A program made the translations under genes and the position numbers. The notes beneath the pieces were generated by a model. The model ran no database searches. It had not been told where the DNA came from and worked only from the letters and a program-made list of their open reading frames with translations. Source: Hyphomicrobium sp. 99 (GTDB lineage Bacteria > Pseudomonadota > Alphaproteobacteria > Rhizobiales > Hyphomicrobiaceae). Taken from it: DNA of 64,000 nt. Within the stretch, counting starts at the first letter, position 1; each line of letters starts with the position of its first letter. Shown one piece after another: positions 84 to 30,357 of the stretch. The DNA lies in the NCBI RefSeq assembly GCF_000384335.2, contig NZ_KQ031382.1, positions 1,054,001 through 1,118,000 on the forward strand. Direction: 5' to 3'.

Positions 84-107
84 CGGGACTTGATACTGGA
101 GGATAAG

Positions 108-1695: not shown

Positions 1696-2757
1696 ATGAC
1701 GGGCACTGATGAGCTGACACACGAAGAACTGCTGCAGCGATTGCAGGTCCTGGCTGAGCGCGCAGTGAGGCGCTACGGTCTTGCCGATGACTGCACGGTC
1801 AAGCTGATCAACGTCTCCGAGAATGCAACCTACCGCGTCGAAACCGGTGCGGGACAAAAGTGGGCGCTGCGCGTCCATCGCGACGGCTATCATTCGCGAA
1901 CCGGCATTGCTTCGGAACTCGCGTGGCTGTCCGCCCTTCGCGAAAATGGTGGCGTTGCAGCCCCGACGGCGGTGAGGGGCCTCGACGGCGAATTTATCCA
2001 GACAGTGGCGGCCGAAGGTCTGCCGAACGCGCGCAACGTCGTGCTGTTTCAGTGGGAGAACGGATCCGAGCCGGCGCAGTCCGACGTCGCCGGTTTCGAA
2101 TTGCTCGGTGAGACCGCGGCGCGCATGCATGCGCATGTTCGCAAGTGGCAGCGGCCCCCGTGGTTCGAACGCTTCTCCTGGGACTTCGAGACCAGTCTCG
2201 GCAGTCGTCCCCATTGGGGCTCCTGGAAAGACGGTATGGGAATGACGCCGGAAGCGCTTGCGGCCATCACCGAAACCGTCGCGCTGATCAAGCAGCGGCT
2301 CGAGAATTTCGGCCAGTCACCCGATCGCTTCAATCTCGTGCACGGCGATATGCGCTTGGCCAATCTGCTGATGGATGGCTCGACCGTTAAGGTCATCGAT
2401 TTCGACGACTGCGGCTTCTCCTGGCTTCTTTACGACTGCGCGACCACCGTTTCATTCTTCGAGCACGAGCCCGAGGTGCCGGAGCTCCTGAAAGCCTGGG
2501 TGCGCGGCTATCGCCGTGTCGGAACCCTGAGCGAAGTGGAAGAAAACGAGATCGCGACGTTTGTCATGCTCCGCAGACTTCTGCTCGTCGCGTGGATCGG
2601 GTCGCATTCGGAAACGGAGCTCGCCAAATCGATGGGCGTCGCATACACGGCGAGTTCGATCCCGCTTTGCGAGCAATACCTCTCCCGCTATGGCAATCCC
2701 GCCAAAGACACCGCCGCACCCCCCAAGAAGGGCATTCTGGGTCGTCTCTTTGGCTGA
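1696..2757 (+). CDS. APH/homoserine-kinase-type phosphotransferase
   Basis: Soluble small-molecule kinase of 353 residues in the aminoglycoside phosphotransferase/choline kinase superfamily. The catalytic loop HGDMRLANLL and the metal-binding segment VIDFDDCG with following LYD are intact, as in SrkA- and homoserine-kinase-II-like proteins. It lies in a plus-strand group with an aminoaldehyde dehydrogenase (160 bp upstream) and an AraC regulator. A class III aminotransferase of the ethanolamine-phosphate phospho-lyase type lies 10 kb away in the same cluster. Kinase and phospho-lyase pairs are known for amino-alcohol breakdown (hydroxylysine, aminopropanol), so an amino-alcohol kinase is possible. 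The substrate cannot be read from the sequence. No strong ribosome site precedes the ATG at 1696. Confidence 0.72.
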   Translation: MTGTDELTHEELLQRLQVLAERAVRRYGLADDCTVKLINVSENATYRVETGAGQKWALRVHRDGYHSRTGIASELAWLSALRENGGVAAPTAVRGLDGEFIQTVAAEGLPNARNVVLFQWENGSEPAQSDVAGFELLGETAARMHAHVRKWQRPPWFERFSWDFETSLGSRPHWGSWKDGMGMTPEALAAITETVALIKQRLENFGQSPDRFNLVHGDMRLANLLMDGSTVKVIDFDDCGFSWLLYDCATTVSFFEHEPEVPELLKAWVRGYRRVGTLSEVEENEIATFVMLRRLLLVAWIGSHSETELAKSMGVAYTASSIPLCEQYLSRYGNPAKDTAAPPKKGILGRLFG

Positions 2758-2886
2758 ATGCTGCACCGCAAATATGCAGTCTCGGCCGTTAATTGCCGAA
2801 TAATTCACCGCGCATGACGGTTGACCCGCGAGCCGCTTCTGCTAGCCTTTTTCTCTGGGATATTGGCACCTGCTCACCAGGAAACG

Positions 2887-3966
2887 ATGGGACTCGGCAT
2901 TATCGACTTCGCAGCGAGTGGCGCCGCTTCCCCCATCGGGAAGGGGGCGGATCCGTCCGTGCTGGCTTCTGCCGCGACCGGTTTAGTCAAGTTCATCGAG
3001 CGCCAGCGTGGCGACGTCGATAGAATTTTCGGCAGCGCCGGCATTTCACCTGAGATGGCCGGCTCACCGACGCTGCAGTTGAGCCTCAACTCCTACTGCC
3101 GCCTGTTCGAAGAAAGCGCGCGGATCACGCGCAACGATAACTTCGGCCTCTGGTTCGGCAACGCCTTCGATCCGCGAGACCTCGGCCTCTGGGGATATGC
3201 CTCGCTTTCGGCTCCGTCCCTCGGCGTTGCACTCGAAACGCTCGTCGAACTCTTTCCGCTGCACCAGCAGTCGTCGTCGATGGCGCTGAATACGTCGCCC
3301 GAAGGCTTGGTCAGGCTCGAATATCGCATCGACGCGCCACAAATCGTCGAACGCCGGCAGGACGCGGAATTGTCGCTCGGCATGTTCCTCAATCTCATTC
3401 GCGAAGCGATGGGCCAGAGCTGGGCGCCCGAGGAAGTTCACTTCGAGCATCCGAAGCCCGAAGGTTGGCGTGAGCACGAACGCGCCTTCGCAGCTCCCGC
3501 GTTTTTCTCGCAGCCGACGAATGCAATCGTCTTCCGCCCACAAATCCTGAAGCAGGTTATGCCGGCAGCCGATCCGCGGCTCATGTCCGCAATGAAGCTG
3601 TGCCTCGAACGGCTTTCGGAACGTCGCGACGTCCGCTCCAGCATCACCGATCGTGTTCGCAGCGCCGTCCGCTCGAGGCTTCCCGAAGGCTTTCCGCAAA
3701 TCGAGTGCGTTGCCGCCGAGCTGCGTCTGCCTCTCTCGACCATTCAGCGCGAGCTTCACTACGACGGCCTGAGCTACAGCACGCTCGTCGAGAACACGCG
3801 GCGAGACCTGGCGCTGTCATACGTGCGCCAGCGCCAACTCTCTTTCTCTGAAATCGCGTTCCTCGTCGGCTATTCCGAACTCTCGGCCTTTAGCCGCGCC
3901 GTCCGCCGATGGACGGGACTCTCTCCGCGCGCATTGCGCGCGGAGGTTTTACGCAGCCAAATCTAA
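2887..3966 (+). CDS. AraC family transcriptional regulator
   Basis: Transcription factor of 359 residues. The N-terminal two thirds resemble the arabinose-binding-like ligand domain (PF12625 type) found in OruR/ArgR-like AraC proteins. The C-terminal 90 residues form the double helix-turn-helix, with the characteristic SFSEIAFLVGYSELSAF helix pair followed by RAVRRWTG-SPRALR. The ATG at 2887 is chosen because AGGA lies 6-9 bp upstream; a TTG further upstream (2821) lacks a site. The gene sits between the kinase and the convergent SDR, inside the amine/diol catabolic region, so it is the obvious candidate regulator of that region. Repeated motifs near 9076 and 12661 could be its targets (inference). 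Confidence 0.85.
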   Translation: MGLGIIDFAASGAASPIGKGADPSVLASAATGLVKFIERQRGDVDRIFGSAGISPEMAGSPTLQLSLNSYCRLFEESARITRNDNFGLWFGNAFDPRDLGLWGYASLSAPSLGVALETLVELFPLHQQSSSMALNTSPEGLVRLEYRIDAPQIVERRQDAELSLGMFLNLIREAMGQSWAPEEVHFEHPKPEGWREHERAFAAPAFFSQPTNAIVFRPQILKQVMPAADPRLMSAMKLCLERLSERRDVRSSITDRVRSAVRSRLPEGFPQIECVAAELRLPLSTIQRELHYDGLSYSTLVENTRRDLALSYVRQRQLSFSEIAFLVGYSELSAFSRAVRRWTGLSPRALRAEVLRSQI

Positions 3967-3995: not shown

Positions 3996-4775
3996 CTAGG
4001 CCTGCGCGATCGCATCCATGCTCTCGGGCAGGATCTGACCGCCGTCGACGATGATCGTCTGCCCGGTGATGTAGGCGGCTTCTTTGGAAGCAAAAAACAG
4101 CGCCGCGTAGCCGATGTCTTCGACCTTTCCAAGCTTCTGCAGTGGAATGGAAGCCGCCGCCGATTTCTCATACTCAGGTCCGAGGGCCGCGAGACCTTCC
4201 GTTGCGATATTGCCCGGGAGAACAGCGTTGACGGTAATGCCGTACTTCGCGAACTCCATGCAGGCCGTACGCATGAAGCCGAGCTGTCCGGCCTTCGTCG
4301 CACCGTAGTGAGCCCAGCCCGGAAAAGCCGTGATAGGACCGGTAATCGACGACGTGATGACGATGCGGCCCTGATCCGATTTCTTCAGATACGGCAGGCA
4401 GGCCTTGACCGACAGAAACGTTCCCTTGAGGTTCGTGTCGGAAACGAAATCCCAGTCTTCCGGCGACAGCTCCTCGATCTTGGTCTGCGGAAAGATGCCG
4501 GCGTTGGCGCAGAGGATATCGATGCCGCCGTAAGCTCTGGCGGTCGCCTCAGCGAGCACCTGCAAGTCGCCCATGCTCGTGATGTCGGCGGCGAAACCCA
4601 TCGCCGTGCCGCCGGCCGCGCGCAACTCTTCCGCCGTAGCTTCAGCTTCGGCGAGCTTACGCGAGACGACGACGACCTTGGCACCGCTCTTTGCGAAAAC
4701 GCGGGCGATACCCTTGCCAATGCCCTTGCTCCCACCCGTGACGATGACGGAGCGGCCTGCGATAGACGTGAGCAT
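3996..4775 (-). CDS. SDR family oxidoreductase (FabG-like)
   Basis: Classical short-chain dehydrogenase/reductase of 259 residues. The cofactor motif TGGSKGIG lies near the N-terminus, followed by the NAG motif (CANAG) and the catalytic Ser-Tyr-Lys set (SSITG, then YGATK). The C-terminus carries the usual ITGQTIIVDGG. It would interconvert an alcohol and a carbonyl with NAD(P)H. The start is the ATG at 4775, with AGGAG about 8 bp upstream; a TTG two codons earlier is less likely. It lies 64 bp downstream of the last gene of the polyamine-type ABC importer on the same strand and is probably the last gene of that transcript, suggesting a role on the imported compound. The substrate is unknown. 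Confidence 0.82.
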   Translation of the reverse strand: MLTSIAGRSVIVTGGSKGIGKGIARVFAKSGAKVVVVSRKLAEAEATAEELRAAGGTAMGFAADITSMGDLQVLAEATARAYGGIDILCANAGIFPQTKIEELSPEDWDFVSDTNLKGTFLSVKACLPYLKKSDQGRIVITSSITGPITAFPGWAHYGATKAGQLGFMRTACMEFAKYGITVNAVLPGNIATEGLAALGPEYEKSAAASIPLQKLGKVEDIGYAALFFASKEAAYITGQTIIVDGGQILPESMDAIAQA

Positions 4776-4839
4776 GAACAAATCTCCTCAGGGACGTGTT
4801 GTTGGTCTTGTTAAAGTCTCAGCTATTGAGAGCTCATCT

Positions 4840-5649
4840 CTAAGCCGCGGATTTGCGGTTGCGCGTGAGCAGGAGCATCGCCGCGTAACCTCCGAAAAGA
4901 ACGATTGCAGCGGCCGCGGTCGAGATCGTTCCGAGCACGGGCACACCGGGCGTATAGCCGGCGACCATCTTTGCGTAGAGATACTTGGGCAGCGTGTTGT
5001 CGGCGCCCGTCGTAAATAGCGACAGGGGGAAGTTGCCCCATGACAGCAGGAAAGCGAACAGGCTGCCCGAGAAAATTCCAGGCATGAGAACCGGCAGCGT
5101 CACCTCGCGGAAGGTCTGCCACCGCGAAGCGCCGAGATCTGTCGCCGCTTCTTCCAACGATGGGTCGAAAGAGTAGACCTGGATCGCCATCACCAGCGTG
5201 ACCACAGGGGCAATCCAAACGAGGTGCGCAAGCACCGCGGTCTTCCACGACAACGTAAAGCCCATGGCGTTGAACCACAGTAGCAGAGCGAGGCCGAGAA
5301 CCGATTGCGGAAAGAAGATCGGGAGAAGGATGAACTTCTGATAGAGCTTCCGTCCGCGCCAATCGTAGCGGGCAAACGCGAGCGCGCCGAAGAAGCCGAG
5401 CACGACCGCGAGGACGGTTACGACCGCTGCTATCGACAAAGACGTGTAGGCGAGCGACCTCACTTCAAGTGAGTTGAGGGTTTTTGTCCACCAGTCGAAG
5501 CCGAAAGCCGAGATCGGGAATGTGAAGTAGCGGCTGGCCGTCATTGAAGCGAGCAAGATCGTCGCGCTCGGAAGAAACACGAAGAGCAAAACCGCGGCGG
5601 TCCAGACGCCGATCAGAATGTGACGAACGCTGTAATTGCTGTCGGACAT
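4840..5649 (-). CDS. potC: ABC importer permease, spermidine/putrescine PotC type
   Basis: Inner-membrane permease of 269 residues with about six hydrophobic segments and the cytoplasmic EAA loop that docks the ATPase (EEAATDLGASRWQTFREVTLP). The sequence type is that of PotC/PotI/YdcV. It pairs with the permease encoded just upstream and the ATPase and binding protein beyond it. The start is the ATG at 5649, just after the upstream stop codon (TAA at 5656-5654); an in-frame start six codons earlier would overlap the upstream gene. Polyamine and related amine or opine-like compounds are usual for the family; here the link to a diol dehydratase suggests a hydroxylated amine. Confidence 0.85.
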   Translation of the reverse strand: MSDSNYSVRHILIGVWTAAVLLFVFLPSATILLASMTASRYFTFPISAFGFDWWTKTLNSLEVRSLAYTSLSIAAVVTVLAVVLGFFGALAFARYDWRGRKLYQKFILLPIFFPQSVLGLALLLWFNAMGFTLSWKTAVLAHLVWIAPVVTLVMAIQVYSFDPSLEEAATDLGASRWQTFREVTLPVLMPGIFSGSLFAFLLSWGNFPLSLFTTGADNTLPKYLYAKMVAGYTPGVPVLGTISTAAAAIVLFGGYAAMLLLTRNRKSAA

Positions 5650-5653
5650 CGCG

Positions 5654-6514
5654 TTACCGCTTTCCAAGAATTTGATCGAGATCGAAGCGCCTCAGCACGA
5701 TGAGGACGAGCACGCTGACGACCAGCATCAGCAGCACTGCGAGCGCAGCGCCCAGTGGCCAATTCTGTGCGTACGTGAAGGCAATCTCGATATCGTGTGT
5801 GATGGGGATGATGCGCTGGCCGCCGAGAACCTTTGCCTCGGCAATCGCGCCGACCGCGAGCACGAAGGTCAGAAGCGAGCCAATCATCAAGCCCGGCGTG
5901 GATAGCGGCAGTTCGACTTCGCGAAAAACCTGCCACCGCGTAGCGCCGAGATCGCGTGCAGCTTCGCGCATCTGGTTCGGAACCATCGCGATGCCGAGCG
6001 TCATGGGAAACAGCATGAACGGCAGGTAGACGTAGACCATGCCGAACAGGACCGCCGCCGGAGTAAAGAGAAAATCTCCCATCTCCACGCCGAAGAGCGC
6101 TTTCAACGTGCCTGGAAGCACGCCGCCCTTGATGAAGAACAAAACCCAACCATAGAGACGAATGTTTTCCGAAACGATGAGAGGGATGGTGAAGAGCAGC
6201 GTCAGCGCCGTCGACCAGCGGCCGAACACGCGGACGAGACCGTAAGCAACGGGGTAGCAGATGAGCGCGAGCAGAACGACCGTCGCCGATGCGAGGCCGA
6301 GCGACCACAACAGCGAGACGTAGGTGTTGTCGGTGAAGATCTTCTCGTAATTTTCGAGAGTGGGCTCGTGCCAGAGCCCGAAGGTTCTGGGCGGCATGAA
6401 GCTGAAGCCGACGACAGCGAGAAGCGGCGCAATGAATCCGAGCAGCAGCAAAACCACGATCGGCAAGGCCGCACGGCGCCCAGGCTGGGCAAGAAACGAA
6501 TTGGTGCCGCTCAT
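5654..6514 (-). CDS. potB: ABC importer permease, spermidine/putrescine PotB type
   Basis: Inner-membrane permease of 286 residues with six predicted helices and an EAA loop (REAARDLGATRWQVFREVELP). It resembles PotB/PotH. Its ATG overlaps the stop of the ATPase gene by four bases (ATGA), and it is followed at once by the PotC-type permease, so the three are co-translated. The N-terminal tail (SFLAQPGRRAALP) is typical of PotB homologues. Together with PotC it forms the membrane channel of the importer. Confidence 0.86.
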   Translation of the reverse strand: MSGTNSFLAQPGRRAALPIVVLLLLGFIAPLLAVVGFSFMPPRTFGLWHEPTLENYEKIFTDNTYVSLLWSLGLASATVVLLALICYPVAYGLVRVFGRWSTALTLLFTIPLIVSENIRLYGWVLFFIKGGVLPGTLKALFGVEMGDFLFTPAAVLFGMVYVYLPFMLFPMTLGIAMVPNQMREAARDLGATRWQVFREVELPLSTPGLMIGSLLTFVLAVGAIAEAKVLGGQRIIPITHDIEIAFTYAQNWPLGAALAVLLMLVVSVLVLIVLRRFDLDQILGKR

Positions 6515-7575
6515 TCGTCAGCCACCAGAATAGCGTTTTCCGGATCCCATCCGATCAGGACTTCGTCGTCGAGCGAGCCCTTGAACGGCTGCTGACGCAG
6601 CTTCTCGACAAGGAATACTTTTTCGCCGACACGCACCTGATACTGGATGCGCGAGCCGAGTGCGTACTCGTTGTAGAGTATTCCCTTGAGGCAATTCTGC
6701 GCGTCATTTGGAGTGTCGAGGAAGCGCAGGAATTCTGGCCGAACGACAAGGCACTGTGCTTTGGCTTCGATCGAATTCGGCGGAACCTTGAAGCTCGCGC
6801 CGAGCGATTGCGAATGCACAGAGCCCGCACCGTTGGCTTCAACAGGAATGACGTTGACGTCACCCATGAACTCGGAGACGAAACGCGAGCGCGGCGTCGA
6901 ATAAATTTCATTCGGCGAGCCGACTTGAATGAGCTTGCCGCGGCGCATGACGCCGATCCGGTCGCTCATCACCATCGCTTCTTCGAGGCTATGCGTGATG
7001 TAGACGAACGTCTTGCCGGTTTGGCGGTGAATGTCCTTGAGCTCTTTCTCGAGCGTCTTGCGGAGCTTGTAATCGATCGCGGACAACGGCTCGTCGAAGA
7101 ACAGGATTTGCGGGTCGAACGCGAGCGCCCGGGCAAGCGCCACGCGCTGACGCTCACCGCCTGAGCACAGTGTGACGTTCTTCCCGTAATAGTCGGCGGG
7201 AAGCTGCAGCTGCTGCATCAGCTCGCGGGCGCGCTTCTCGCGAACGGCCGGATCGACATTCCGGATCTTGAGCGCGAATTCGATGTTCTGCCCCACCGTC
7301 CGGTGTGGGAAGAGAGCGAGCGATTGGAACACCATGCAGGTCGGCCGCTCGTTGGCCGGGGTGTCGTTGATGCGCTTGTCGTGAAGCAGAATGTCGCCCG
7401 AGGTCGGCTTTTCCATTCCGGCGAGCATGCGGATCAAGGTGGTCTTGCCGCTGCCGGAGGGGCCGACGATCGTGAAGAATTCGCCTTCGCCGATGGAGAG
7501 ATTGACGTCATCGACGGCGGCGAGACTGCCGAACGCTTTACGGACGTTCTTCAATTGCAGGATGGGCTTTGACAT
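6511..7575 (-). CDS. potA: ABC importer ATP-binding protein, PotA type
   Basis: ATPase of 354 residues. The Walker A (GPSGSGKTT), Q-loop (MVFQSLALFPH), signature (CSGGERQRVALARAL), Walker B (ILFFDEPLSAID) and switch His (THSLEEA) are all intact. A C-terminal TOBE-like domain (from about residue 240) is typical of PotA/MalK-type importers. The ATG at 7575 (MSKPILQLKNV) matches family N-termini; in-frame codons further upstream lack homology. The gene lies 132 bp downstream of the binding-protein gene and overlaps potB by four bases. The signature begins C-SGG rather than the usual L-SGG, a minor variation. Confidence 0.9.
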   Translation of the reverse strand: MSKPILQLKNVRKAFGSLAAVDDVNLSIGEGEFFTIVGPSGSGKTTLIRMLAGMEKPTSGDILLHDKRINDTPANERPTCMVFQSLALFPHRTVGQNIEFALKIRNVDPAVREKRARELMQQLQLPADYYGKNVTLCSGGERQRVALARALAFDPQILFFDEPLSAIDYKLRKTLEKELKDIHRQTGKTFVYITHSLEEAMVMSDRIGVMRRGKLIQVGSPNEIYSTPRSRFVSEFMGDVNVIPVEANGAGSVHSQSLGASFKVPPNSIEAKAQCLVVRPEFLRFLDTPNDAQNCLKGILYNEYALGSRIQYQVRVGEKVFLVEKLRQQPFKGSLDDEVLIGWDPENAILVADE

Positions 7576-7707
7576 TGCGGTCAACGTAGGAGTTCCAACT
7601 TTAAGCAAGCCGATGAGAAATGCTTTGGGCCTTCCGCTCATCAACGGCGGAAGGCCCATGCGATATGTTATACGCCACGCGCAGAGGTAACGACGCGGCG
7701 CACTAGC

Positions 7708-8862
7708 TCAGCTCTTCTTCGCTGCGTTCCAGATGTCGAGCAACTTGTCGTAATCGGGAACGATGTCGTACTCGACGGATCCGGCCATTTCCTCTTCGAG
7801 GCTATCCCACTGGATGGCGTCGAGCTGCTCCTTCGAGAAGAGCTTGAAGCACTCGGGATTACCCATTTGGGTGACCGGGTTGAAGGTGCCCTCGGCAAAC
7901 GCAACGGTGTGAGCGACGACAGGATCCTGCACGTATTCGAGGAAGGCTTCGGCGAGCGGTGAGCTCTCCGGATTATTGACGACCGACGTGATTTCGATCC
8001 ACGCGATGCCGCCCTTGCCGCCGGCGAGAGGTCCCTTCTTCGGCGTGATGCCGCGAAGGTTCAAGTGACCGTCAGCACGTGCCGGAGACACGGAGTACGA
8101 TCCGCCCGTCAGGTGGCAATCGATTTCGCCGGACACCAGCGCCTGGTTCATCGTCGCGATGTCGCCGACAACCTTCTTGTTCTTCAGAACGCGCTTCGCA
8201 GTTTCCTCGAACTTTGCAACTTCTTCAGCAGAGTGCGGCTTGTACGGATTGAAGCCGGCGATGCAGCAGATGCCGAACACGTTCCAGTCGTCGGATTCGA
8301 GAATGCCGAAGCGGCCCGCGAGCTTCGGGTCGTTGAAGAGATCCCAGCCCTGATCCTCGGCTGTCGCCCGGCTGATCTTGTCGGTGTTGACGACGAAAGA
8401 GTATGGCCCGAAGCGCTGCGCCATGCCGAGCAATTCCTTGCCCGAGTCGTCCATCGCCCATTTGTACGGCGGCTTGAACTGCGGCAGCATCTTTTCGAAG
8501 TATGGCTCGAACTTCGCGCGATCCAGCGGCTTGATCAGCTTCTCGGGCAACATGACTTTGCGTGCCCAGGGATTATTGACGTTGATGAGATCCCAAACGT
8601 TGATCTCACCGGCGCGCAGGCGGTTGATCATCGTCGGATCGTTGGTCAGGCTTTCTGCCTTGACCGTCGCGCCCTTGGAGGAGCGGAACGGATCGAGCAC
8701 CTGAGCCGAGTTATAGCCTTCCCAACAAAGGATATTGAGTTCCTTGTCACGGGCCGCGAATGCGGGCCGTGAGAATGGACCCATCTGGCTGGCGGCCAGC
8801 GTCGCCGCGACAGACGCGGACGTTTTCATAAAGTTCCGGCGCGTGAGGTTGCTGTCAAACAT
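7708..8862 (-). CDS. potD: ABC importer periplasmic substrate-binding protein, PotD/PotF type
   Basis: Extracytoplasmic solute-binding protein of 384 residues. The N-terminus carries a twin-arginine signal (TRRNFMKT, then SVAATLAAS), so export by the Tat route is likely, and the mature part starts near ARDKELNILCWEGY. The LNILCWEGYNSAQVL opening and the later segments are typical of spermidine/putrescine-binding proteins (PF13416 type). The ATG at 8862 has AGGAG 8 bp upstream. The gene heads the potDABC run. The preceding 230 bp contains no gene but holds a motif shared with the divergent promoter at 12.5-12.7 kb. The ligand is probably an amine. Confidence 0.85.
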   Translation of the reverse strand: MFDSNLTRRNFMKTSASVAATLAASQMGPFSRPAFAARDKELNILCWEGYNSAQVLDPFRSSKGATVKAESLTNDPTMINRLRAGEINVWDLINVNNPWARKVMLPEKLIKPLDRAKFEPYFEKMLPQFKPPYKWAMDDSGKELLGMAQRFGPYSFVVNTDKISRATAEDQGWDLFNDPKLAGRFGILESDDWNVFGICCIAGFNPYKPHSAEEVAKFEETAKRVLKNKKVVGDIATMNQALVSGEIDCHLTGGSYSVSPARADGHLNLRGITPKKGPLAGGKGGIAWIEITSVVNNPESSPLAEAFLEYVQDPVVAHTVAFAEGTFNPVTQMGNPECFKLFSKEQLDAIQWDSLEEEMAGSVEYDIVPDYDKLLDIWNAAKKS

Positions 8863-9094
8863 GCCTGTCACTCCTGGTGGGCGAAAGATGATGTTGTTGC
8901 CCAAAAAACGGGCCCGAACGAAAGCGATCGAAGGGGGCTCGCCAATGGACGAGCACGAGTCGGAAGGAGCGTTTCAACAGTCGATCACGTCATATTCAGT
9001 TCCCCCTATGACAAAATCACTGTAGGCGCGCAGCCGCCAAGTTGATTTGACTTTCGTCTACGGAAACTTGACCCTCTGAGCCGAGTCAAGCCGT
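8863..9094 (-). promoter_or_regulatory. Intergenic region upstream of potD with candidate regulator motif
   Basis: No gene is seen here. At 9067-9090 an inverted repeat CTTGAC-N12-GTCAAG is present, and 9076-9096 reads CTGAGCCG-AGTCAAGCCGTTT. The elements CTGAGCCG and GTCAAGCCGTT recur at 12661-12668 and 12675-12685 in the divergent promoter region of the same cluster. A binding site for the AraC regulator is a reasonable guess, not shown. Confidence 0.35.
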
Positions 9095-9790
9095 TTAGGT
9101 TAGCTTCATCAGAGCGTTGAGATCCGAACTCGACATGACGTGGCAATAGATCATGTTCATGATTTCGAGTTCTTTGTGATGAAGCTCGTCGGAACCCGCA
9201 GCGCAGCAATCTTCGACCACGACGACCGAGAAGCTCTCGTCGGCCAGACTGCGGACGGTTGAAGACACGCACTGGTCGGTAAAAATTCCGCAGCACACAA
9301 CGGTTTTGATGCCGAGGTTGGTCAGGATCAGCCGCAAGTTGGTTCCGGTCAGCGCACTGTCGGTCGTCTTCGTGACGACGATCTCGTCGCCCACCGGGGC
9401 AAGCTCCGGCACGATCTGCGACGGCGCCTCGTCTTTGGGCAAGAGCAGGTTGTTCCAGCCCGGCATCTTTTGCGACAGCGACCGGTCGCGGCCATCCTTG
9501 GTGTGGCAGGCGATGCGGGCAAACAGGCATTCGATGCCGTTCTTCCGGAATCTTTCCAGCAGCTCCTGCGTCCGCGGCAGAACGATATTGTGCATGCGGT
9601 CGTGGAACGGCGTCCAGGCATCGTACCGCCGCTGATCTTCCGCTGAAAGTGATGCGCGGTCCGGCCGGGCGAGATAGGTGTTTTGAACGTCGATTATGAG
9701 GAGGGCCGTGGTTTCCTTGGAGAGATCCGGATCATCTGGCTCCGGCGCGCCGTCGTAATAGATGGATCGATAGGCTGTCTTCCAGCTCAT
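9095..9790 (-). CDS. Isochorismatase-family cysteine hydrolase
   Basis: Cytosolic hydrolase of 231 residues in the isochorismatase/nicotinamidase superfamily. The catalytic triad is visible: Asp in LLIIDVQNTY, Lys in VVTKTTDSA, and Cys in GIFTDQCVSSTVR, preceded by the family's cis-peptide region. Members cleave amides or carbamoyl groups (nicotinamide, N-carbamoylsarcosine, ureidoacrylate, biuret), or vinyl ethers. The gene starts 10 bp after the diol dehydratase gamma subunit, with AGGGG as ribosome site, so it is the third gene of the dehydratase operon. That points to an amide or carbamoyl bond in the imported compound or an intermediate. The exact substrate is unknown. Confidence 0.83.
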   Translation of the reverse strand: MSWKTAYRSIYYDGAPEPDDPDLSKETTALLIIDVQNTYLARPDRASLSAEDQRRYDAWTPFHDRMHNIVLPRTQELLERFRKNGIECLFARIACHTKDGRDRSLSQKMPGWNNLLLPKDEAPSQIVPELAPVGDEIVVTKTTDSALTGTNLRLILTNLGIKTVVCCGIFTDQCVSSTVRSLADESFSVVVVEDCCAAGSDELHHKELEIMNMIYCHVMSSSDLNALMKLT

Positions 9791-9800
9791 GCCCGCCCCT

Positions 9801-10229
9801 TTAGAAACGCTTTTTGTAGAGAGAGCGGCGTTCGTAGACGTCCGCTGCCTCTTCGATGAAAGCCGCGACGCCCTCAGCGCCGTAGGTCTCGCGAAGTTCC
9901 CGCGCGGCCGCGACGAGTTCTTGCCTGGAGCTTGCCCGTCCCGGACGCAGCAGCTCGTAGATCCGCATGATCACATCCTGAGGCACGTCCACGAGTTCGG
10001 CGCCGCGCTCGAAGTTGGCGGCAAGTGTCGGCCGCCCCGCAGCCGTCGCGATTTCCGCCTGCTGGCGAAGCGCCCGGTCCGTGATCCGAAGATCTTCGAG
10101 TTTCACGCGGTCGGAGATCACGGCATCAAGGGTGATGTCGTCCAGCTTCTTGCCGGCCTTCGTTTCGACGACGTCGGGCCGGTTCTCGGCGAGCGGATAG
10201 TCGGCAACCGTCAGAGGCTTCCCGGTCAT
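9801..10229 (-). CDS. B12-dependent diol/glycerol dehydratase, small (gamma) subunit
   Basis: Small subunit of an adenosylcobalamin-dependent diol dehydratase, 142 residues. It matches PduE/DhaB3 throughout its length: YPLAE near the start, the TLDAVISDRV and LRITDRALRQQAEIA blocks, LAANFERGAEL, and RIYELLRP. The gene overlaps the large-subunit stop codon by four bases (ATGA). It lacks the longer N-terminal extension that, in Klebsiella and Salmonella PduE, helps with low solubility and microcompartment targeting. That agrees with the absence of shell-protein genes in this window. Confidence 0.93.
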   Translation of the reverse strand: MTGKPLTVADYPLAENRPDVVETKAGKKLDDITLDAVISDRVKLEDLRITDRALRQQAEIATAAGRPTLAANFERGAELVDVPQDVIMRIYELLRPGRASSRQELVAAARELRETYGAEGVAAFIEEAADVYERRSLYKKRF

Positions 10230-12508
10230 GCGGCGGCTCCGATGAAAGTCACGTCGATCTCTTCTGGCTCCGCGCCTTCCGACGTCATTTCCGTCTCGAT
10301 CGCGTAGATGAGCGAAACCCGCGCATGGTAACGCGAGCCCATCGCTTCGCCCCGCGTCGGCACGATGACAGGCTCGGGCATTTCGCCGAGCGCGTAGGCG
10401 GCCGCGTTGAGCCCCATGCGCTTGTAATGTTCGAGCTTCGTGATCGGCGAATTCGAGAACAGCTCGAGATTGTTGTGCGGCAGCCGGTCTTTCTGATGGA
10501 TGACGGCAGTGCCCTTCGCCTGAATGCCGATCCCGATCCCCGAGCCTGCGAGCCTTGCCGCGCTGAGCCCCAGGAACGAGGTATCGGCCGTATGGCGCAT
10601 GCGAACGACGCGAGCCGTGCCTCCGCCTTCCGTAATGCCCGCGATCAGCACACGCAGAATGGCAGAGAGCGGATGCCCCGCAACCGTTTGGAAAAGCTTC
10701 ACACCGAAGGCAGGACTGATGCCGATCACCACCTCCCGCTCATTGCGCGTCGTGGCGGCGGGGCCGACCGGTTTGTAGGCAATCCGCGTGACTTCCGCGG
10801 GCCTGAAGGTCGCCTCGACCCTCAGCACCTCTTGCCGTGTCAGCACATCTCGAATGGCGACGATTTCATCGCGTCGCTCATCTGTCAGACGGTAGCCCGT
10901 GCCCGGACCCTGATAATCGTTGGGATTGTTGACCGCGCTGACGATGCGCCCATCGCGAACGACCGCCGAGGTTTGCAGATAGTCGCCGGAGACGCGGAGC
11001 CGCACGAGCTTTAAAAGATTTTCGGCTTCCTCAGTAAATCCCCGCGCTGCGAGCGCTTTGATAACGTCGATGACCGTAATCGATCGCGCAAAGATGGCTT
11101 CGCTGATCATCGCCACGTCTCGGCCCGAGAACGTCCGCGTTTCGTCCGAGCCCGACGCCGCGACGACGCTCTGCTTCATGTCCTTCGTGGGCTTCGCTAG
11201 TTGAAGCTCCTCGAGGACGGCGCTGATCGCATCGACGGCCCGAGCCCTGAGTTCCATGACGCGCGTCTCGCCGACCGGAGTGAGCCCGCCATCGGCCTCG
11301 AAGTCGCGCTGCAGAACCAGATAATCCTCGAGTTCCTCGCCGTTGAGCAGCGAGGCATTGAACGAATTGTCGTACTTCAGGATCGAACCGAAACCGGAAC
11401 AGATGAGATCCGACCCGGCAATGAGATACGGCAGGATCTTCGCGCCGACCCGGATCTCCGATTCCGTCGCGCGTGCATCGTTGCCGGACGCGCATTCGAG
11501 ATCGAGCCAGACGGCGATAAGGTTTTCCGCCATCAATTCGCGCATGCCGCCGGGAACGGTGCAGGTGACGGGCGCACCGTCGATGCCGCCGTTCTGCGTG
11601 CCCTGCGCGCCCATTGCGCGCTGGAGGCAAAGGCAGCGCGCTTCGAGATAGAGCAACGATTTGCGATCGTGAAATCCCATCAGCAACTCTGAGCCGGCGC
11701 CCGATGTGCACCGCATCTTGATGCCGCGCGAAGCGTAAGCTGCCGCGAGAAACGCCTTGGACCAGGGCGTGTCGTCGCCATCGATGAAGCTCTTCTCGGT
11801 GCCGTAGACCGAGACCGTCTCGGCATAGGACGTAAACCCCGCCATGCCGATCTTGAGCTCTTCAGCCTCTTCGCTGGAGCACTGAAAGAGCGTACCCCAA
11901 CGTCCGACGGCGGCCCCAACCGCACAAGCAACGGCGTTTGACCACGAGTTGCGAGCGACCCGCATCGTCGTCTCGATTTCGTCGAAGCCGAATGCTACGG
12001 CGGTTGCCGCGTCCGCCGCCATCTGCAACGGATCGTCCTTCGCGTTCGTCACGTGCGCCTGGTTGCCGGGCGTCTGGCGAGCCCGCATTTTGCTGTAGGC
12101 AAACGCGATCTCGAGCGACGACAGGTGACCGACCACCTCCGCCAGCTTCGCAGGCGTCATACCGCGCGCCAAGCGCACGAGCGTCGTGCGCGGCACGTTC
12201 ATATCGACGAGCATGCGCGCGACTTCGAGCGACGGCATCGCCATCGCTTCCGGCGCAATTTCAGGATCGAGGTGATATCGCGCGATGAAAAAGTCGATCA
12301 TATCGAAATCGCGGGACGCGATGCCGTCCATCGATTCAACGACCCCCGCGGCAAGCGAAAACCCGGGTTTCGGATCGAAAGGACTCTTGAACGCCGCAAA
12401 GCCGTTAGCGGCATCCTCCGCCGCGAACTTGTCGAGCCGGAGCGGGCGTTCATCCCAATCGGAAAACCGCTTCCAGCGATTTGGCCGTGCGTGCGATTCA
12501 TCCGTCAT
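10226..12508 (-). CDS. B12-dependent diol dehydratase, fused large (alpha) and medium (beta) subunits
   Basis: AdoCbl-dependent dehydratase of 760 residues that turns a 1,2-diol into an aldehyde by radical rearrangement. Residues 1 to about 560 are the alpha (PduC/DhaB1) TIM barrel. From about 590 to the end is the beta (PduD/DhaB2) subunit, with VIGISPAFG and GIQAKGTAVIHQ, which bind the cobalamin. Against the Klebsiella enzyme (recalled from memory) the alpha part aligns with a constant offset of 9. All listed catalytic residues are kept: Gln150, His152, Glu179, Glu214, Glu230, Gln305, Asp344, Ser371. Positions equal to Ser301 and Gln336 are Asp310 and Ala345, suggesting an altered, possibly amine-bearing substrate. 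The ATG at 12508 fits family N-termini. It is the first gene of the minus-strand operon. No reactivase gene is nearby. Confidence 0.94.
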   Translation of the reverse strand: MTDESHARPNRWKRFSDWDERPLRLDKFAAEDAANGFAAFKSPFDPKPGFSLAAGVVESMDGIASRDFDMIDFFIARYHLDPEIAPEAMAMPSLEVARMLVDMNVPRTTLVRLARGMTPAKLAEVVGHLSSLEIAFAYSKMRARQTPGNQAHVTNAKDDPLQMAADAATAVAFGFDEIETTMRVARNSWSNAVACAVGAAVGRWGTLFQCSSEEAEELKIGMAGFTSYAETVSVYGTEKSFIDGDDTPWSKAFLAAAYASRGIKMRCTSGAGSELLMGFHDRKSLLYLEARCLCLQRAMGAQGTQNGGIDGAPVTCTVPGGMRELMAENLIAVWLDLECASGNDARATESEIRVGAKILPYLIAGSDLICSGFGSILKYDNSFNASLLNGEELEDYLVLQRDFEADGGLTPVGETRVMELRARAVDAISAVLEELQLAKPTKDMKQSVVAASGSDETRTFSGRDVAMISEAIFARSITVIDVIKALAARGFTEEAENLLKLVRLRVSGDYLQTSAVVRDGRIVSAVNNPNDYQGPGTGYRLTDERRDEIVAIRDVLTRQEVLRVEATFRPAEVTRIAYKPVGPAATTRNEREVVIGISPAFGVKLFQTVAGHPLSAILRVLIAGITEGGGTARVVRMRHTADTSFLGLSAARLAGSGIGIGIQAKGTAVIHQKDRLPHNNLELFSNSPITKLEHYKRMGLNAAAYALGEMPEPVIVPTRGEAMGSRYHARVSLIYAIETEMTSEGAEPEEIDVTFIGAAA

Positions 12509-12763
12509 GGCTGCGTTCTCAACGATGGGTGATGCGATTGCAATCAAGTGACGATAGCCTGAGCCCTGTCAGGGGATTTGACCAGAGCCGCCTCGAAGTT
12601 GACGTGTCTCCGGGCTCAAGACCACGACCGGCCGTGCCGCTCAAGCGCAAACTGAACAGACTGAGCCGCGAAGGGTCAAGCCGTTGTCGGCCGCGTACCC
12701 TATATTAAACGAAATCGATGCGAATACGCAGCGCAGGATCAAGGAGCTTGCCCAAGGGGCGTT
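12509..12763. promoter_or_regulatory. Divergent promoter region between diol dehydratase and aminotransferase operons
   Basis: A gene-free stretch that must hold both promoters of the divergent catabolic operons. It contains repeated elements: TTGACCAGAGCCG at 12578-12590, CTGAGCCG at 12661-12668 and GTCAAGCCGTT at 12675-12685. Related copies lie upstream of potD (9068-9096). The AT-rich run TATATTAAACGAAAT (from about 12700) may be part of the plus-strand promoter. No convincing sigma-70 pair can be assigned. Confidence 0.4.
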
Positions 12764-14101
12764 ATGGAAGCTACGCGAAAAATTCTCGACCTCAACGCCT
12801 TCGACATGAACGCGGCCGACACGCTCGCGCCCGAGGTGACAGAGCTCGTCAAGCGCCGGAAACAGACATTCGGCCCGACCTCGATGCTGTTTTACCAACG
12901 CCCATTGAATCTCGTCAGGGGCGAGGGGGTCTGGCTCTACGACGCCGACGGCACCCGCTATCTCGACGCCTATAACAACGTGCCGTCCGTCGGGCATTGC
13001 CACCCGCGCGTCGTCGAAGCCGTATCGCGCCAGCTCGGCACACTGAACACGCACACGCGCTATCTCTACGACAACATTTACACTTACGCCGAACGGCTGC
13101 TCGGCTCCATGCCAGAGCCCGTCTCGAACATCGTCTTCACCTGCACTGGCAGTGAAAGCGGCGATCTCGCCCTGCGCATTGCCCGCGCAGTCACCGGCGG
13201 CACCGGTTTCATCGTCACCGATAATGCCTATCACGGCAACACCACCTCGATGACGGAGATATCGCCGTCATCCGCCAGCGCCGAGCCGAGACCGCCCTAT
13301 GTGTTCCTCGTGCCGGCGCCGGACACATATCGCTACGGCAGCGATGCCATCGGATCGAAATTTGCCGCGGACGTTCGCGCGGCCATTGCGGCAATGGAGA
13401 AAGCGGGCATTCGCCTCGCCGCGTTCATGGCCGATAGCATCTTTTCGAGCGATGGCGTTTTTCCGGGCGAGCCGGGCTTCCTGGCCGAAGCAGTCGCGGC
13501 GGTTCGTGACGGTGGAGGCGTCTACATCGCCGACGAAGTGCAGCCCGGCTTCGGCCGTACGGGCGAGAAGATGTGGGGCTTCCAGCGCCACGGACTGGTG
13601 CCCGATATGGTCGTGATGGGTAAGCCGATGGGCAACGGGTTCCCGATGGGCGGCGTCGCGGTCAAACCCGCCATGCTCGAGTCGTTCGGCTCGAGGTCCG
13701 GTTACTTCAACACATTCGGCGGCAATCCAGTCGCGGCCGCTGCGGGATTGGCTGTCTTGGATGTCCTAAAAGACGAAGGCCTGCAGGAGAATAGCTTTGA
13801 GACCGGCGCCTATCTGCGCTCGGAGCTACGCATCGCCGGAGCCGACGGCGACCGCATCGGCGATGTCCGAGGCTCCGGACTTTATATCGGCGTCGAGGTC
13901 GTCACTGATAAGGCATCAGCCAAGCCCGACCGCGCGCTTGCCGAGAAAATCGTCAATGGCATGCGTGCGCGCAATGTCCTTATCGGAACGGCCGGGGGGC
14001 ACGGCAACGTCTTGAAGATTCGCCCGCCGCTCTGCTTTACTCGCGAGCACGCCGACATCTTCATCGAGGCGTTCAAAGGCGCGTTGGCCGAGGCATCTTA
14101 A
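12764..14101 (+). CDS. Class III PLP-dependent aminotransferase (or phospho-lyase)
   Basis: PLP enzyme of 445 residues in the omega-aminotransferase fold. Asp257 ([13 protein letters not shown]) should bind the pyridine nitrogen and Lys287 ([14 protein letters not shown]) form the Schiff base. The stretch [14 protein letters not shown] with [16 protein letters not shown] resembles ethanolamine-phosphate and phosphohydroxylysine phospho-lyases as well as omega-transaminases, so either activity is possible. The ATG at 12764 has AAGGGGC upstream. It is divergent from the diol dehydratase operon and 33 bp upstream of an aldehyde dehydrogenase with which it should form an operon. It could deaminate beta-alanine or an amino alcohol, or, with the kinase at 1696, eliminate phosphate and ammonia. 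Confidence 0.85.
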
Positions 14102-14134
14102 AACCGCTATCGAACGCATTCAGCTGGAGCCGAG

Positions 14135-15613
14135 ATGGAATCGAAGCTTTTCATCGACGGAAAGTGGTGCGACGCGCTGGGCGGGGGCACCCTCGATGTC
14201 GTCAACCCGGCGAACGAGCGGATCTTCCATTGCTGCGCCGCTGGAACTGCAGCGGACGTCGACGCGGCGGTCGCCGCCGCGAAGGCGGCAATGGCAGGTC
14301 CATGGTCGCGCACGACCGGCCGGGATCGGGCAGTATTCCTTCGCGCGATCGGCGCGGCGATTGAAGAGCAAAAGCAGGCGCTCGCCGAAATCGAGGTGAA
14401 GGATAACGGCAAGCCGCTGCCCGAAGCCCTTTGGGATATCGGCGACGCCGCGTATTGTTTCAATCTCTATGCGACCTATGCCGAAGAATTGGACGGACGC
14501 CAGGGCGAGATCATCGCGGTGCCCGACGCGCGCTTTCAATCGCGCGTCAAATACATGCCCTCAGGCGTCGCCGGTCTCATCGTGCCGTGGAATTACCCGC
14601 TGTTGATGGCCACGTGGAAGGTCGCGCCAGCCATCGCAGCAGGCTGCGCGGTCGTTCTGAAGCCGTCGGAATATACGCCGCTTACCGCACTCGAACTCGC
14701 ACGCATCGCCGCCGAAGCCGGTCTGCCGAACGGCGTGTTGAATGTCGTGACGGGATATGGCGCGGACGCGGGCGCTCGTCTCGCATCGCATCCCGATGTC
14801 CGCAAGCTCGCCTTCACAGGCTCAGTGCCGACGGGCATCGCGGTCGCATCCGCCGCCGCACGCGACGTCAAAAGCATCAGCCTCGAACTCGGCGGCAAAT
14901 CGCCGATCGTGATCTTCGACGATGCCGACATCGAGCAGGCCGTCGAATGGGTGATGTTCGGGATTTTCTGGAACCAGGGGCAGGTCTGCTCTGCCACATC
15001 GCGGATGATCGTTGAGAAGGGCATCGCGCCGAAGCTCATCGACCGGCTATCGGCGGAAGCCAAGAAGATCAAGATCGGCGACGGCATGGCAGCCGGTACA
15101 CTCCTCGGACCGCTTGTCAGCAAAACGCAATATGAAAAGGTGCTGGGCTTCATCGACGCCGGAAAGAACGAGGCGACGCTTGTGACCGGCGGCGGTCGCC
15201 CCTCGCATCTCAACGAAGGCTATTTCCTGGAGCCGACAATCTTTGCCGATGTGACGCCGTCAGCGCGCATTTGGCGCGAAGAAATCTTTGGTCCCGTCCT
15301 CGCGGTGACGACGTTCGATACGGAGGCCGAGGCCGTGGCGTTGGCGAACGACAGCGAATTCGGTCTCGCCGCGGCGGTTATGTCCGGCGATCTGAAGCGC
15401 GCAGAACGTGTCGCCGATGCATTTGAAGCGGGCGTCGTCTGGATCAATTGCTCGCAGCCGAACTTCCTCGAACCCCCGTGGGGCGGCGTTAAGAAAAGCG
15501 GCGTCGGGCGTGAACTCGGAACGTGGGGCCTGAACAACTTCCTCGAGCCGAAGCAGATCACCGCCTACACAACCCAGGAGCCATGGGGCTGGTATTTGAA
15601 GGGCGCCGAATGA
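14135..15613 (+). CDS. Aldehyde dehydrogenase, betaine/aminoaldehyde dehydrogenase-like
   Basis: NAD(P)-dependent aldehyde dehydrogenase of 492 residues with catalytic Glu251 (LELGGK) and Cys285 (WNQGQVCSATSR). The FxNQGQVCSATSR context is typical of betaine-aldehyde and other aminoaldehyde dehydrogenases. The ATG at 14135 has GGAG 8-10 bp upstream. It lies directly behind the class III aminotransferase and is likely co-transcribed with it. Its probable role is oxidation of the aldehyde made by the diol dehydratase or by the PLP enzyme. It is only distantly related to the first dehydrogenase at 108, so it is not a recent duplicate. Confidence 0.87.
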   Translation: MESKLFIDGKWCDALGGGTLDVVNPANERIFHCCAAGTAADVDAAVAAAKAAMAGPWSRTTGRDRAVFLRAIGAAIEEQKQALAEIEVKDNGKPLPEALWDIGDAAYCFNLYATYAEELDGRQGEIIAVPDARFQSRVKYMPSGVAGLIVPWNYPLLMATWKVAPAIAAGCAVVLKPSEYTPLTALELARIAAEAGLPNGVLNVVTGYGADAGARLASHPDVRKLAFTGSVPTGIAVASAAARDVKSISLELGGKSPIVIFDDADIEQAVEWVMFGIFWNQGQVCSATSRMIVEKGIAPKLIDRLSAEAKKIKIGDGMAAGTLLGPLVSKTQYEKVLGFIDAGKNEATLVTGGGRPSHLNEGYFLEPTIFADVTPSARIWREEIFGPVLAVTTFDTEAEAVALANDSEFGLAAAVMSGDLKRAERVADAFEAGVVWINCSQPNFLEPPWGGVKKSGVGRELGTWGLNNFLEPKQITAYTTQEPWGWYLKGAE

Positions 15614-15622
15614 GAGCGGCCG

Positions 15623-16384
15623 TCAGGCTTTGAGGCGGTAGCCCGTCCTGAAGATCCACCAGGCGATGGCCATACAGACCGCAAGGAACACGAACGTCAT
15701 CAGCAGGCTCACGCCGACATTGACGTCGGAGATCTCAAAGAAGCTCCAGCGAAATCCGCTGATCAAATAGACGACAGGATTGAAGAGCGTCACGGTTTGC
15801 CAAAACGGCGGTAACATCTTCACCGAATAGAAAGTACCGCCGAGAAACGTCAGGGGCGTGATGACGAGAAGCGGGATGATCTGAAGCTTCTCGAACCCGT
15901 CAGCCCAGATCCCGATGATAAATCCGAGCATGCTGAAAGTTAGCGCTGTAAGCAGCAAGAATAGGATCATCCAAAAGGGATGCGCGATGCGAAGCGGCAC
16001 GAAGAGGCTTGCCGTGACCAGGACGAGCAGCCCGAGGATGACTGATTTCGTCGCCGCGGCGCCAACATATCCGAGAACGATCTCGAATGCGGAGACCGGA
16101 GCTGAGAGATGCTCGTAAATGGTCCCGGTAAAGCGTGGGAAGTAAATGCCGAACGAGGCGTTGAGCGTGCTCTGCGTCAAGAGCAGCATCATCACGAGGC
16201 CGGGAACGATGAACGCCCCGTAGTCGACACCATCGACCTGCGAAATGCGCGAACCGATCGCTGAGCCGAAGACGATAAAATAAAGACACGTCGAGAGCAC
16301 AGGCGAAACGATGCTCTGCATCAAGGTGCGTCCCCAGCGGGACATCTCGAAACCGTAGATTGCGCGGACAGCCTCGATGTTCAT
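15623..16384 (-). CDS. ABC-2 type exporter permease
   Basis: Integral membrane protein of 253 residues with six hydrophobic segments and the ABC-2 layout of NodJ/YadH-type exporters ([16 protein letters not shown] near the N-terminus, [16 protein letters not shown] before the last pair of helices). It forms the channel of an export system with the ATPase encoded upstream, whose stop overlaps this start by four bases. Such systems export drugs, lipids or glycans; nothing here identifies the cargo. It converges with the aldehyde dehydrogenase with only 9 bp between them. Confidence 0.85.
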
Positions 16385-17307: not shown

Positions 17308-17369
17308 CGATGGGCTCTCTGCAATGGCGTGCTTTAATCGAGCACGCATCGCAGCGTCACCCATGGTTG

Positions 17370-18119: not shown

Positions 18120-18172
18120 TGGCTTTTTCTCCATGAGGTTGGGGGAGGGGGGAGCGTTAAGTTTCGGCCGCG

Positions 18173-21388: not shown

Positions 21389-21421
21389 GGCAGGCGCGCC
21401 CTATTGGCTTTGCTTCAATAT

Positions 21422-22630: not shown

Positions 22631-22753
22631 GATCAATCCCTCGAATGTTCGCGCCTGACGCGCGTCGTTTCGCCAGAAGCGATCCGGCGGAGATGGCTGA
22701 GAGTGGAGTGAGAGCGGCGAGCGTGACGCGGACGGTTGCCGCTGTGCTCGTTG

Positions 22754-30327: not shown

Positions 30328-30357
30328 TAGGACGCTCGAACTTCTGGGAGAGCATCT

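Follow-up and report, generated by a model that had tools for sequence, protein, structure and literature searches.

A fused B12-dependent diol dehydratase in a shell-less gene cluster of Hyphomicrobium sp. 99, a candidate RMM2-like amino-alcohol system in Alphaproteobacteria

Introduction

Among the described systems closest to the gene cluster reported here is RMM2, the type 2 Rhodococcus and Mycobacterium microcompartment, linked to the utilisation of amino-2-propanol and aminoacetone ('Aut'). In the passages of Axen et al. on these loci (PMC4207490), RMM1 comprises a phosphotransferase, a short-chain dehydrogenase/reductase (SDR), an amino acid permease and an aminotransferase, and RMM2 adds a diol dehydratase on the opposite strand. 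The authors conclude there that the RMM2 compartment does not use the dehydratase or, alternatively, that it is bifunctional. RMM2 outliers are known from two other groups, and Sutter et al. also note proteobacterial PDU1D loci (both from passages of PMC8217296). For 'Aut' microcompartment clusters, which they describe from Actinobacteria, Firmicutes and Proteobacteria, Ravcheev et al. put forward a scheme that relies on a transaminase (PMC6620236, section on these clusters). Here we analyse a cluster around a fused B12-dependent diol dehydratase in a 64,000-nucleotide stretch of the Hyphomicrobium sp. 99 genome (contig NZ_KQ031382.1, positions 1,054,001 to 1,118,000, forward strand; hereafter the window). 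We regard it, with slightly more confidence than doubt, as the form that the amino-alcohol system of RMM2 takes, without a shell, in Alphaproteobacteria.

The fused form of the dehydratase has been noticed before in Mesorhizobium loti and Mycobacterium smegmatis, in proteins homologous to glycerol dehydratase (Liu et al. 2010, cited through a passage of PMC7674605). Like the enzyme studied here, these consist of an alpha subunit with added beta sequence plus a gamma subunit, and Mesorhizobium loci are among the relatives we recovered. They differ in having been named glycerol dehydratases, in the role of candidate enzymes, and the citing passage holds no analysis of pocket, reactivase or neighbourhood. 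The rebuilt pocket and the missing reactivase are the new part of this work; in the portions of the open-access literature searched, no description was found of a shell-less cluster, of the pocket of this clade or of its missing reactivase.

Results

The RMM2 gene set in one locus

By homology, the window brings together a kinase, a class-III pyridoxal phosphate (PLP) enzyme, an SDR, a permease and a diol dehydratase in one locus, as described for RMM2 in the relevant passage of PMC4207490. A sequence-only reading of this DNA had proposed a new catabolic regulon for an amino-substituted diol. All genes that it named are intact open reading frames (ORFs) of the families it gave, as confirmed by the ORF list and by family model matches. 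The features are as follows, the first three lying to the left of the interval (3996 to 15613) on which that reading was centred.

90..1535, plus strand: aminobutyraldehyde-type dehydrogenase, a lineage-specific neighbour (NF010000 794 bits, cut-off 615; 6/80 loci)
1696..2757, plus strand: APH-fold kinase, probably an amino-alcohol (1-amino-2-propanol type) kinase (PF01636 93 bits)
2821..3966, plus strand: AraC-family regulator (NF049968, QhpR, 308.9 bits, cut-off 250)
3996..4781, minus strand: SDR dehydrogenase, probably an amino-alcohol/amino-ketone dehydrogenase (PDB 6ci8, 6ci9)
4840..5667, minus strand: PotC-type permease (PF00528; NF007047 129.5 bits, under the cut-off of 326)
5654..6514, minus strand: PotB-type permease (PF00528; NF007044 137.5 bits, under the cut-off of 348)
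6511..7659, minus strand: PotA-type ATPase (PF00005 and TOBE_2; TIGR01187 297.7 bits, under the cut-off of 355.6)
7708..8904, minus strand: PotD-like binding protein with a twin-arginine translocation signal (PF13416; TIGR01409 over cut-off)
9095..9790, minus strand: isochorismatase-like cysteine hydrolase, of the amide/carbamoyl C-N hydrolase kind (PF00857 125 bits)
9801..10229, minus strand: diol dehydratase gamma (small) subunit (PF02287 173 bits)
10226..12547, minus strand: fused alpha-beta B12-dependent diol dehydratase (PF02286 707 bits, PF02288 94 bits)
12764..14101, plus strand: class-III PLP enzyme, phospho-lyase branch (PDB 5g4i, 6tor)
14135..15613, plus strand: aldehyde dehydrogenase, a lineage-specific neighbour (PF00171; TIGR01804 525 bits, under the cut-off of 668.6)

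The minus-strand genes form a densely packed run from 12547 to 3996 (alpha-beta, gamma, hydrolase, PotD-like protein, ATPase, two permeases and SDR), from which the class-III PLP enzyme and the second aldehyde dehydrogenase diverge on the plus strand. The alpha-beta and gamma ORFs overlap as ATGA, and homology indicates that alpha-beta probably starts at the ATG at 12508.

Several features set the locus apart from RMM2. The genome lacks a shell, the importer is of the PotDABC type, and the regulator belongs to the AraC instead of the GntR family. The dehydratase shares one operon with the importer and the SDR, whereas that of RMM2 lies on the opposite strand, and the operon also holds an isochorismatase-like hydrolase, whereas the hydrolases of RMM1 are reported to be absent from RMM2 (both from PMC4207490, same passages). 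In addition, neither aldehyde dehydrogenase of the window is CoA-acylating by model match. The gene set is nonetheless of a known kind, that of RMM2, and differs in the absence of a shell, in operon layout, importer and hydrolase. The proposal of a new regulon did not hold in this respect: a wholly new kind was rejected in view of the RMM2 gene set and of the shells in sister loci.

Conservation of the gene company

A contig scan found 140 dehydratase relatives, of which the best 80, chosen by likeness to the query, were kept and probed by tblastn across 10-kb flanks at bit-score thresholds set by the analyst. A subset of 51 loci has at least 6 kb on each side of the dehydratase. The loci do not represent independent samples; Mesorhizobium, for example, contributes seven of the 80, all on one short branch. 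Among these best 80 of 140 relatives, the closest dehydratases (up to 97% identity) come from Hyphomicrobium and from proteobacterial metagenome-assembled genomes (MAGs).

The kinase was present in 37/51 loci, the window-type SDR in 39/51 (49/80 overall), the hydrolase in 33/51 and an importer in 40/51, made up of 23 with PotDABC and 17 with an APC permease; the other 11 had another importer or none. A class-III PLP enzyme occurred in 35/51 loci, 13 having the phospho-lyase type and 23 a second family (L020 has both). Shell proteins were found in 13/51 loci and a CoA-acylating aldehyde dehydrogenase in 14/51, and an AraC regulator was detected in 27/80 at a threshold of 110 bits. The order alpha-beta, gamma, hydrolase, importer, SDR is kept where the dehydratases are 72-80% identical to that of the window.

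Co-occurrence was examined in 60 related genomes, the host's own included, 19 of which carry the dehydratase. A hydrolase at least 70% identical was found in 19/19 dehydratase-bearing versus 1/41 other genomes (Fisher 1e-14) and a kinase at least 60% identical in 18/19 versus 1/41 (Fisher 4e-13), both values being uncorrected for shared ancestry. The gene company proposed by the sequence-only reading is thus conserved in other genomes, and there is a genetic link between the dehydratase and genes of the amine type. Across 397 Pseudomonadota genomes, again including the host's, the dehydratase family occurs in six, five fused and one canonical.

It could be argued that an amine module and an unrelated dehydratase merely share a locus, through chance or operonic neighbourhood. 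In keeping with this, three of the 51 loci have the dehydratase without the module, and Agrobacterium plasmids carry the module without a nearby dehydratase. Both the gene order kept at 72-80% identity and the distribution of the hydrolase speak against this explanation, which we consider very unlikely.

Two further observations were made on the sister loci. The 3.9-kb contig of L056 is titled Halieaceae, a gammaproteobacterial name, and on the tree its dehydratase is near-identical to that of the Paracoccaceae MAG L058, which perhaps reflects mis-binning. In L028, a 553-aa protein (12687-14348) sits between dehydratase gamma and the hydrolase.

Shell genes and the Rhodococcus locus

The shell domain PF00936 has no match anywhere in the host genome (4.1 Mb in three contigs), with E. 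coli and Synechococcus as positive controls; the absence of a shell gene, first remarked on for the cluster, holds genome-wide. Among the 80 sister loci, 16 have a BMC-T shell match. In L022, one BMC-H protein is 83% and one BMC-T protein 68% identical to the Rhodococcus shell. Shell genes also lie about 9-15 kb from the dehydratase on the same contig in 4/23 fused-type genomes, so that the 10-kb flanks undercount shells. A plasmid locus of Rhodococcus jostii, assigned to RMM by its gene content, holds a kinase, a class-III enzyme, an aldehyde dehydrogenase, shell genes and an ethanolamine permease; the window kinase is 38% and the PLP enzyme 47% identical to their counterparts there.

In 11 alphaproteobacterial RMM-like loci, a conserved 135-aa protein without an NCBIfam family (L022, 20496-20903) is encoded between the shell genes.

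Kinase, PLP enzyme and SDR

The best PDB match of the kinase is 6ef6 (290.6 bits), and those of the SDR are 6ci8 (294 bits) and 6ci9 (292.5 bits). We take 6ef6 to be the aminopropanol kinase, and 6ci8 and 6ci9 the aminopropanol dehydrogenase, of the mycobacterial RMM; the names in the PDB table are generic. The PLP enzyme matches 5g4i, a phospholyase, at 389 bits and 6tor, an ethanolamine-phosphate phospho-lyase, at 358 bits, the first and second of 193 PDB matches. It has K287, which by alignment we presume to be the PLP lysine. The fused NCBIfam model PRK06149 is covered in complementary stretches by the kinase (40 bits, weak) and the PLP enzyme (413 bits). The closest solved relatives of the PLP enzyme are phospho-lyases, a partner kinase is encoded in the locus, and lyase activity is predicted for the enzyme. 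The paper on the RMM kinase is cited in a passage of PMC6787980.

An importer of PotDABC type

The importer had been described as a PotDABC-type amine importer. The type label stands, and the scores against curated polyamine transporters do not carry it further. All four components score far under the NCBI curated cut-offs (19.2 bits versus 582 for PotD), so that 'PotDABC-type' is the strongest label allowed, and firm polyamine import was rejected on these scores. Matches of these genes to models of aminoethylphosphonate transporters likewise fall below cut-off. The sole PDB match of the PotD-like protein at E<=0.001 is the putrescine-binding protein 7xjm (31.9 bits).

Across the 51 loci, the dehydratase tree implies at least nine switches of importer type (potD alone being scored as PotDABC), and the change between PotDABC and APC permease is seen even within Hyphomicrobium. 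Two APC proteins match amino-acid transporter models best, with the ethanolamine permease model second and fourth, all far below cut-off. Since PotDABC and APC replace each other and both have amine or amino-acid relatives, the substrate points to an amine or amino acid.

Two Agrobacterium plasmids (A. fabrum C58 pAt and A. tumefaciens CFBP5877) carry a module of kinase, PLP enzyme, SDR and PotDABC that is 42-75% identical to that of the window, 57-75% for PotDABC. They differ from the window in that no dehydratase occurs in the 17-21 kb read and that the regulator is of the DeoR type; CFBP5877 also lacks the hydrolase there. The modules span L083 9998-18182 and L122 4548-12034, each with the DeoR gene near, one with the hydrolase and one without. 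That the importer feeds the dehydratase, as the sequence-only reading had it, is not supported in view of these plasmids. With modules that are free of a dehydratase, the two may well act on different substrates, and these gene neighbourhoods make the amino-alcohol arm the one to which the importer most likely belongs.

A dehydratase with a rebuilt pocket and no large reactivase subunit

The alpha, beta and gamma parts of a B12-dependent diol dehydratase are all present (PF02286, PF02288, PF02287). Alpha-beta matches NF011979 at 834.5 bits, over the cut-off of 788, and the NCBIfam beta and gamma models match below theirs. The pocket was compared in an alignment of 387 rows to the Klebsiella alpha subunit (81 locus copies, the window's included, and 306 database proteins), which contains close relatives and repeats; an earlier run had 201 rows. 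Q141, H143, E170, E221, Q296, D335 and S362 (Klebsiella numbering) are kept in 387/387 rows. We take these seven to be catalytic or metal residues, on roles that are partly assumed. These residues, the three parts and about 50% identity to Klebsiella alpha (top loci) are what the enzyme has in common with PduCDE and DhaBCE.

The differences from those enzymes are the fusion of alpha and beta, the substitutions S301D, Q336A/T, T337R, M373S, Q267L and A271H, and the absence of the large reactivase subunit from the genome of the window. Position 301, Ser in Klebsiella, is Asp in 386/387 rows and Gln in P0054. Position 336 is Ala in 287 rows, Thr in 89, Cys in 4, Val in 3, Gln in 2 and Ser in 2; position 337 is Arg in 385, Ala in 1 and Gln in 1; and position 373 is Ser in 370, Thr in 14 and Ala in 3. 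Leu267 and His271 are found in all 387 rows. The canonical residues are correspondingly scarce (S301 0/387, Q336 2/387, M373 0/387). In the window protein the residues are D323 (Klebsiella S301), A358 (Q336), R359 (T337) and S395 (M373), and two plasmid copies carry Lys at position 337. The five canonical enzymes compared, one each from Klebsiella and Cetobacterium and three from haloarchaea, all carry S301, Q336, T337 and M373, and the four viewed with their neighbourhood each have a reactivase nearby.

The large reactivase PF08841 was found in 0/23 fused-type genomes (the host's and 22 others) and in the one canonical genome (1/1). The haloarchaeal small reactivase subunit gave no tblastn match in the fused-type loci, the genomes not having been searched by model. 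An adenosyltransferase-family gene (PF02572) occurs in the host genome. Among the 120 listed of about 8000 protein matches in each search, no actinobacterial dehydratase appeared; the named source organisms among the matches listed are, as we take it, alphaproteobacterial. A haloarchaeal plasmid locus (L086, 9962-21228) has a canonical unfused dehydratase with reactivase, followed by a four-gene ABC importer and an aminotransferase, and its pocket is the canonical S301/Q336.

In the crystal structure 3AUJ, S301 hydrogen-bonds the 3-OH of glycerol (PMC9850924), so that the pocket is recast at the C3-contact position. According to the passages on engineered enzymes, S301/Q336 variants shift chain-length preference and the S301A and Q336A variants are inactivated more slowly by glycerol (PMC9850924, PMC7674605), while their kcat/Km for propanediol is lower (table, PMC9850924/PMC7674605). 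An Asp at position 301 would suit a C3 ammonium or polar group. The recast pocket and the missing reactivase are compatible with, but no proof of, a C3-substituted diol (possibly an amino-diol) as the substrate.

The alternative offered by the sequence-only reading, in which aminopropanol is used via kinase and phospho-lyase alongside a route for the diol, accounts for the conserved genes better than the main model of that reading. Extended to two parallel routes to propanal, from amino-2-propanol via kinase and phospho-lyase and from 1,2-propanediol via the dehydratase, it would make the pocket the product of clade drift or of a defence against inactivation by glycerol. RMM2 likewise has a dehydratase beside amino-alcohol genes, and a bifunctional compartment is the authors' own alternative (PMC4207490, same passages). 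The methylmalonyl-CoA mutase family has three matches in the genome, the CoA-acylating aldehyde dehydrogenase of 14/51 loci would suit a small aldehyde, and the slower glycerol inactivation of S301A and Q336A agrees with a defensive role. However, a buried Asp facing the methyl group of propanediol would be odd and is conserved in 386/387 rows, T337R and Q267L/A271H are conserved with it, and the same S301A and Q336A variants had a lower kcat/Km for propanediol. We consider the parallel routes somewhat unlikely.

A further possibility is that R337, in an ion pair with D301, holds an anionic group at C3, the substrate being for example a diol with a sulfonate, phosphonate or carboxylate. The conservation of R337 in 385/387 rows, its replacement by Lys in the two plasmid copies and the sub-threshold matches of the importer to aminoethylphosphonate transporter models would agree with this. 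Nevertheless, the relatives of the importers, the kinase and the PLP enzyme all point to amines, and the reported substrate contact is S301, not T337 (PMC9850924, structural passage), which makes an anionic substrate very unlikely.

Isochorismatase-like hydrolase

The hydrolase carries D34, K141 and C174, presumably its catalytic triad. On plasmids of Sinorhizobium, Rhizobium and Rhodobacter, stretches of some 17 kb hold the hydrolase beside N-formylglutamate amidohydrolase or D-aminopeptidase genes and lack the kinase, PotDABC and the dehydratase. These neighbours are consistent with a predicted role in C-N bond hydrolysis.

In four loci the hydrolase is missing and a class-I glutamine-amidotransferase-like gene follows gamma (L023 12750-13487, L024 4508-5242, L026 10138-10890 and L027 12747-13484), the family being assigned from the L023 protein; L037 and L043 carry both. 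A non-orthologous replacement of the amide-cleaving step is possible.

Aldehyde dehydrogenases, downstream exits and other genes of the window

The two flanking aldehyde dehydrogenases are rare: at a 450-bit threshold for both, the 90-1535 type occurs in 6/80 loci (a lower bound, since the gene falls close to the edge of the 10-kb flanks) and the 14135-15613 type in 5/80. These copies are all at least 87% identical and all stand beside dehydratases at least 91% identical. In L002 and L012, whose dehydratases come nearest on the tree, no copy of the 14135-15613 type stands next to the PLP gene. On these counts they were rejected as core parts, and oxidation by flanking aminoaldehyde dehydrogenases does not stand as a core step. 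Both match non-acylating families best; compared with CoA-acylating enzymes, the window's pair gave no match above 90 bits (the rest of the genome was not searched). The genome encodes both exits, with the methylmalonyl-CoA mutase matches mentioned above and one of 15 methylmalonate-semialdehyde dehydrogenase matches over cut-off, so that the exit route is not discriminated.

Rfam gave no match at gathering score over the window and no cobalamin riboswitch was seen; an RNA element in the window was rejected on this basis. Beside the cluster, 15623-22636 holds an ABC-2 exporter pair, an SDR, a large RND permease (multidrug family models) and an HlyD-type adaptor. Further along lie a hopanoid-type run (25199-32358) of epimerase, glycosyltransferase, squalene/phytoene synthase, amine-oxidase-type and squalene-hopene cyclase proteins, and a protein of the pyrroloquinoline quinone-dependent alcohol dehydrogenase family (49214-50935).

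Discussion

As a shell-less counterpart of RMM2, the cluster could work as follows. The PotDABC-type importer would take in a vicinal amino alcohol, H2N-CH2-CH(OH)-R, which we hold to be probable. From homology, the SDR would interconvert amino alcohol and amino ketone, the kinase would phosphorylate the 2-hydroxyl, and the PLP phospho-lyase would remove phosphate and ammonia to leave an aldehyde (propanal if R = CH3); the formation of an aldehyde by kinase and phospho-lyase is the part of the scheme that we consider likely. The fused, reactivase-free B12 dehydratase would turn a C3-substituted 1,2-diol into an aldehyde, with an amine-bearing compound (R = CH2OH, 3-amino-1,2-propanediol type) as its most likely substrate. 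Whether it acts on a C3-substituted diol rather than on propanediol or glycerol seems to us evenly poised, and that this substrate is specifically an amino-diol is doubtful. The isochorismatase-like hydrolase would release the amine from a precursor in amide or carbamoyl form, a role that we propose tentatively. Finally, a non-acylating aldehyde dehydrogenase may stand in for the CoA-acylating enzyme and shell of the sister loci.

Several observations weigh against this scheme. In 3/51 loci (L071, L076 and L080) the dehydratase has no kinase, no PLP enzyme, no SDR, no hydrolase and no shell beside it, in 5/51 (L014, L046, L073, L077 and L079) it has just one of these partners, and in 23/51 loci the PLP enzyme belongs to another class-III family. 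PotD copies 71-75% identical serve modules without a nearby dehydratase, and no annotated SDR was found in the 25 kb read of the R. jostii locus. With regard to the pocket, D301 is also present in L071, L076 and L080, without any module genes, and in L084 and L085, with sugar-type importers; the change is therefore a property of the whole clade, not limited to amine-module loci. R337, as invariant as D301, might pair with and neutralise it, and with adenosylcobalamin bound, D335 is reported to replace S301 preferentially in orienting the C3-OH (PMC9850924, structural passage). Propanediol or glycerol may still be the substrate of the dehydratase.

In a bolder form of the amino-alcohol scheme, the fused clade would be an amino-diol dehydratase and represent a new substrate class. 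D301 would bind the ammonium of 3-amino-1,2-propanediol, or of an N-substituted relative, to give 3-aminopropanal, and a reactivase would be dispensable because the substrate does not inactivate as glycerol does. The enzyme would feed the same amine pathway as the RMM module, in a shell or in the cytoplasm depending on the genus. We regard this form as unlikely.

The role of the RMM2 diol dehydratase is unsettled in print, and the present locus makes the question directly testable. That the dehydratase lies in one operon with importer and SDR over many genera, with and without a shell, argues for joint use and offers non-pathogenic hosts for testing it. Proteins of the fused type go by database names such as propanediol or glycerol dehydratase, which may mislead. 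A naturally reactivase-free clade with a rebuilt pocket would bear on why the canonical enzymes need reactivation.

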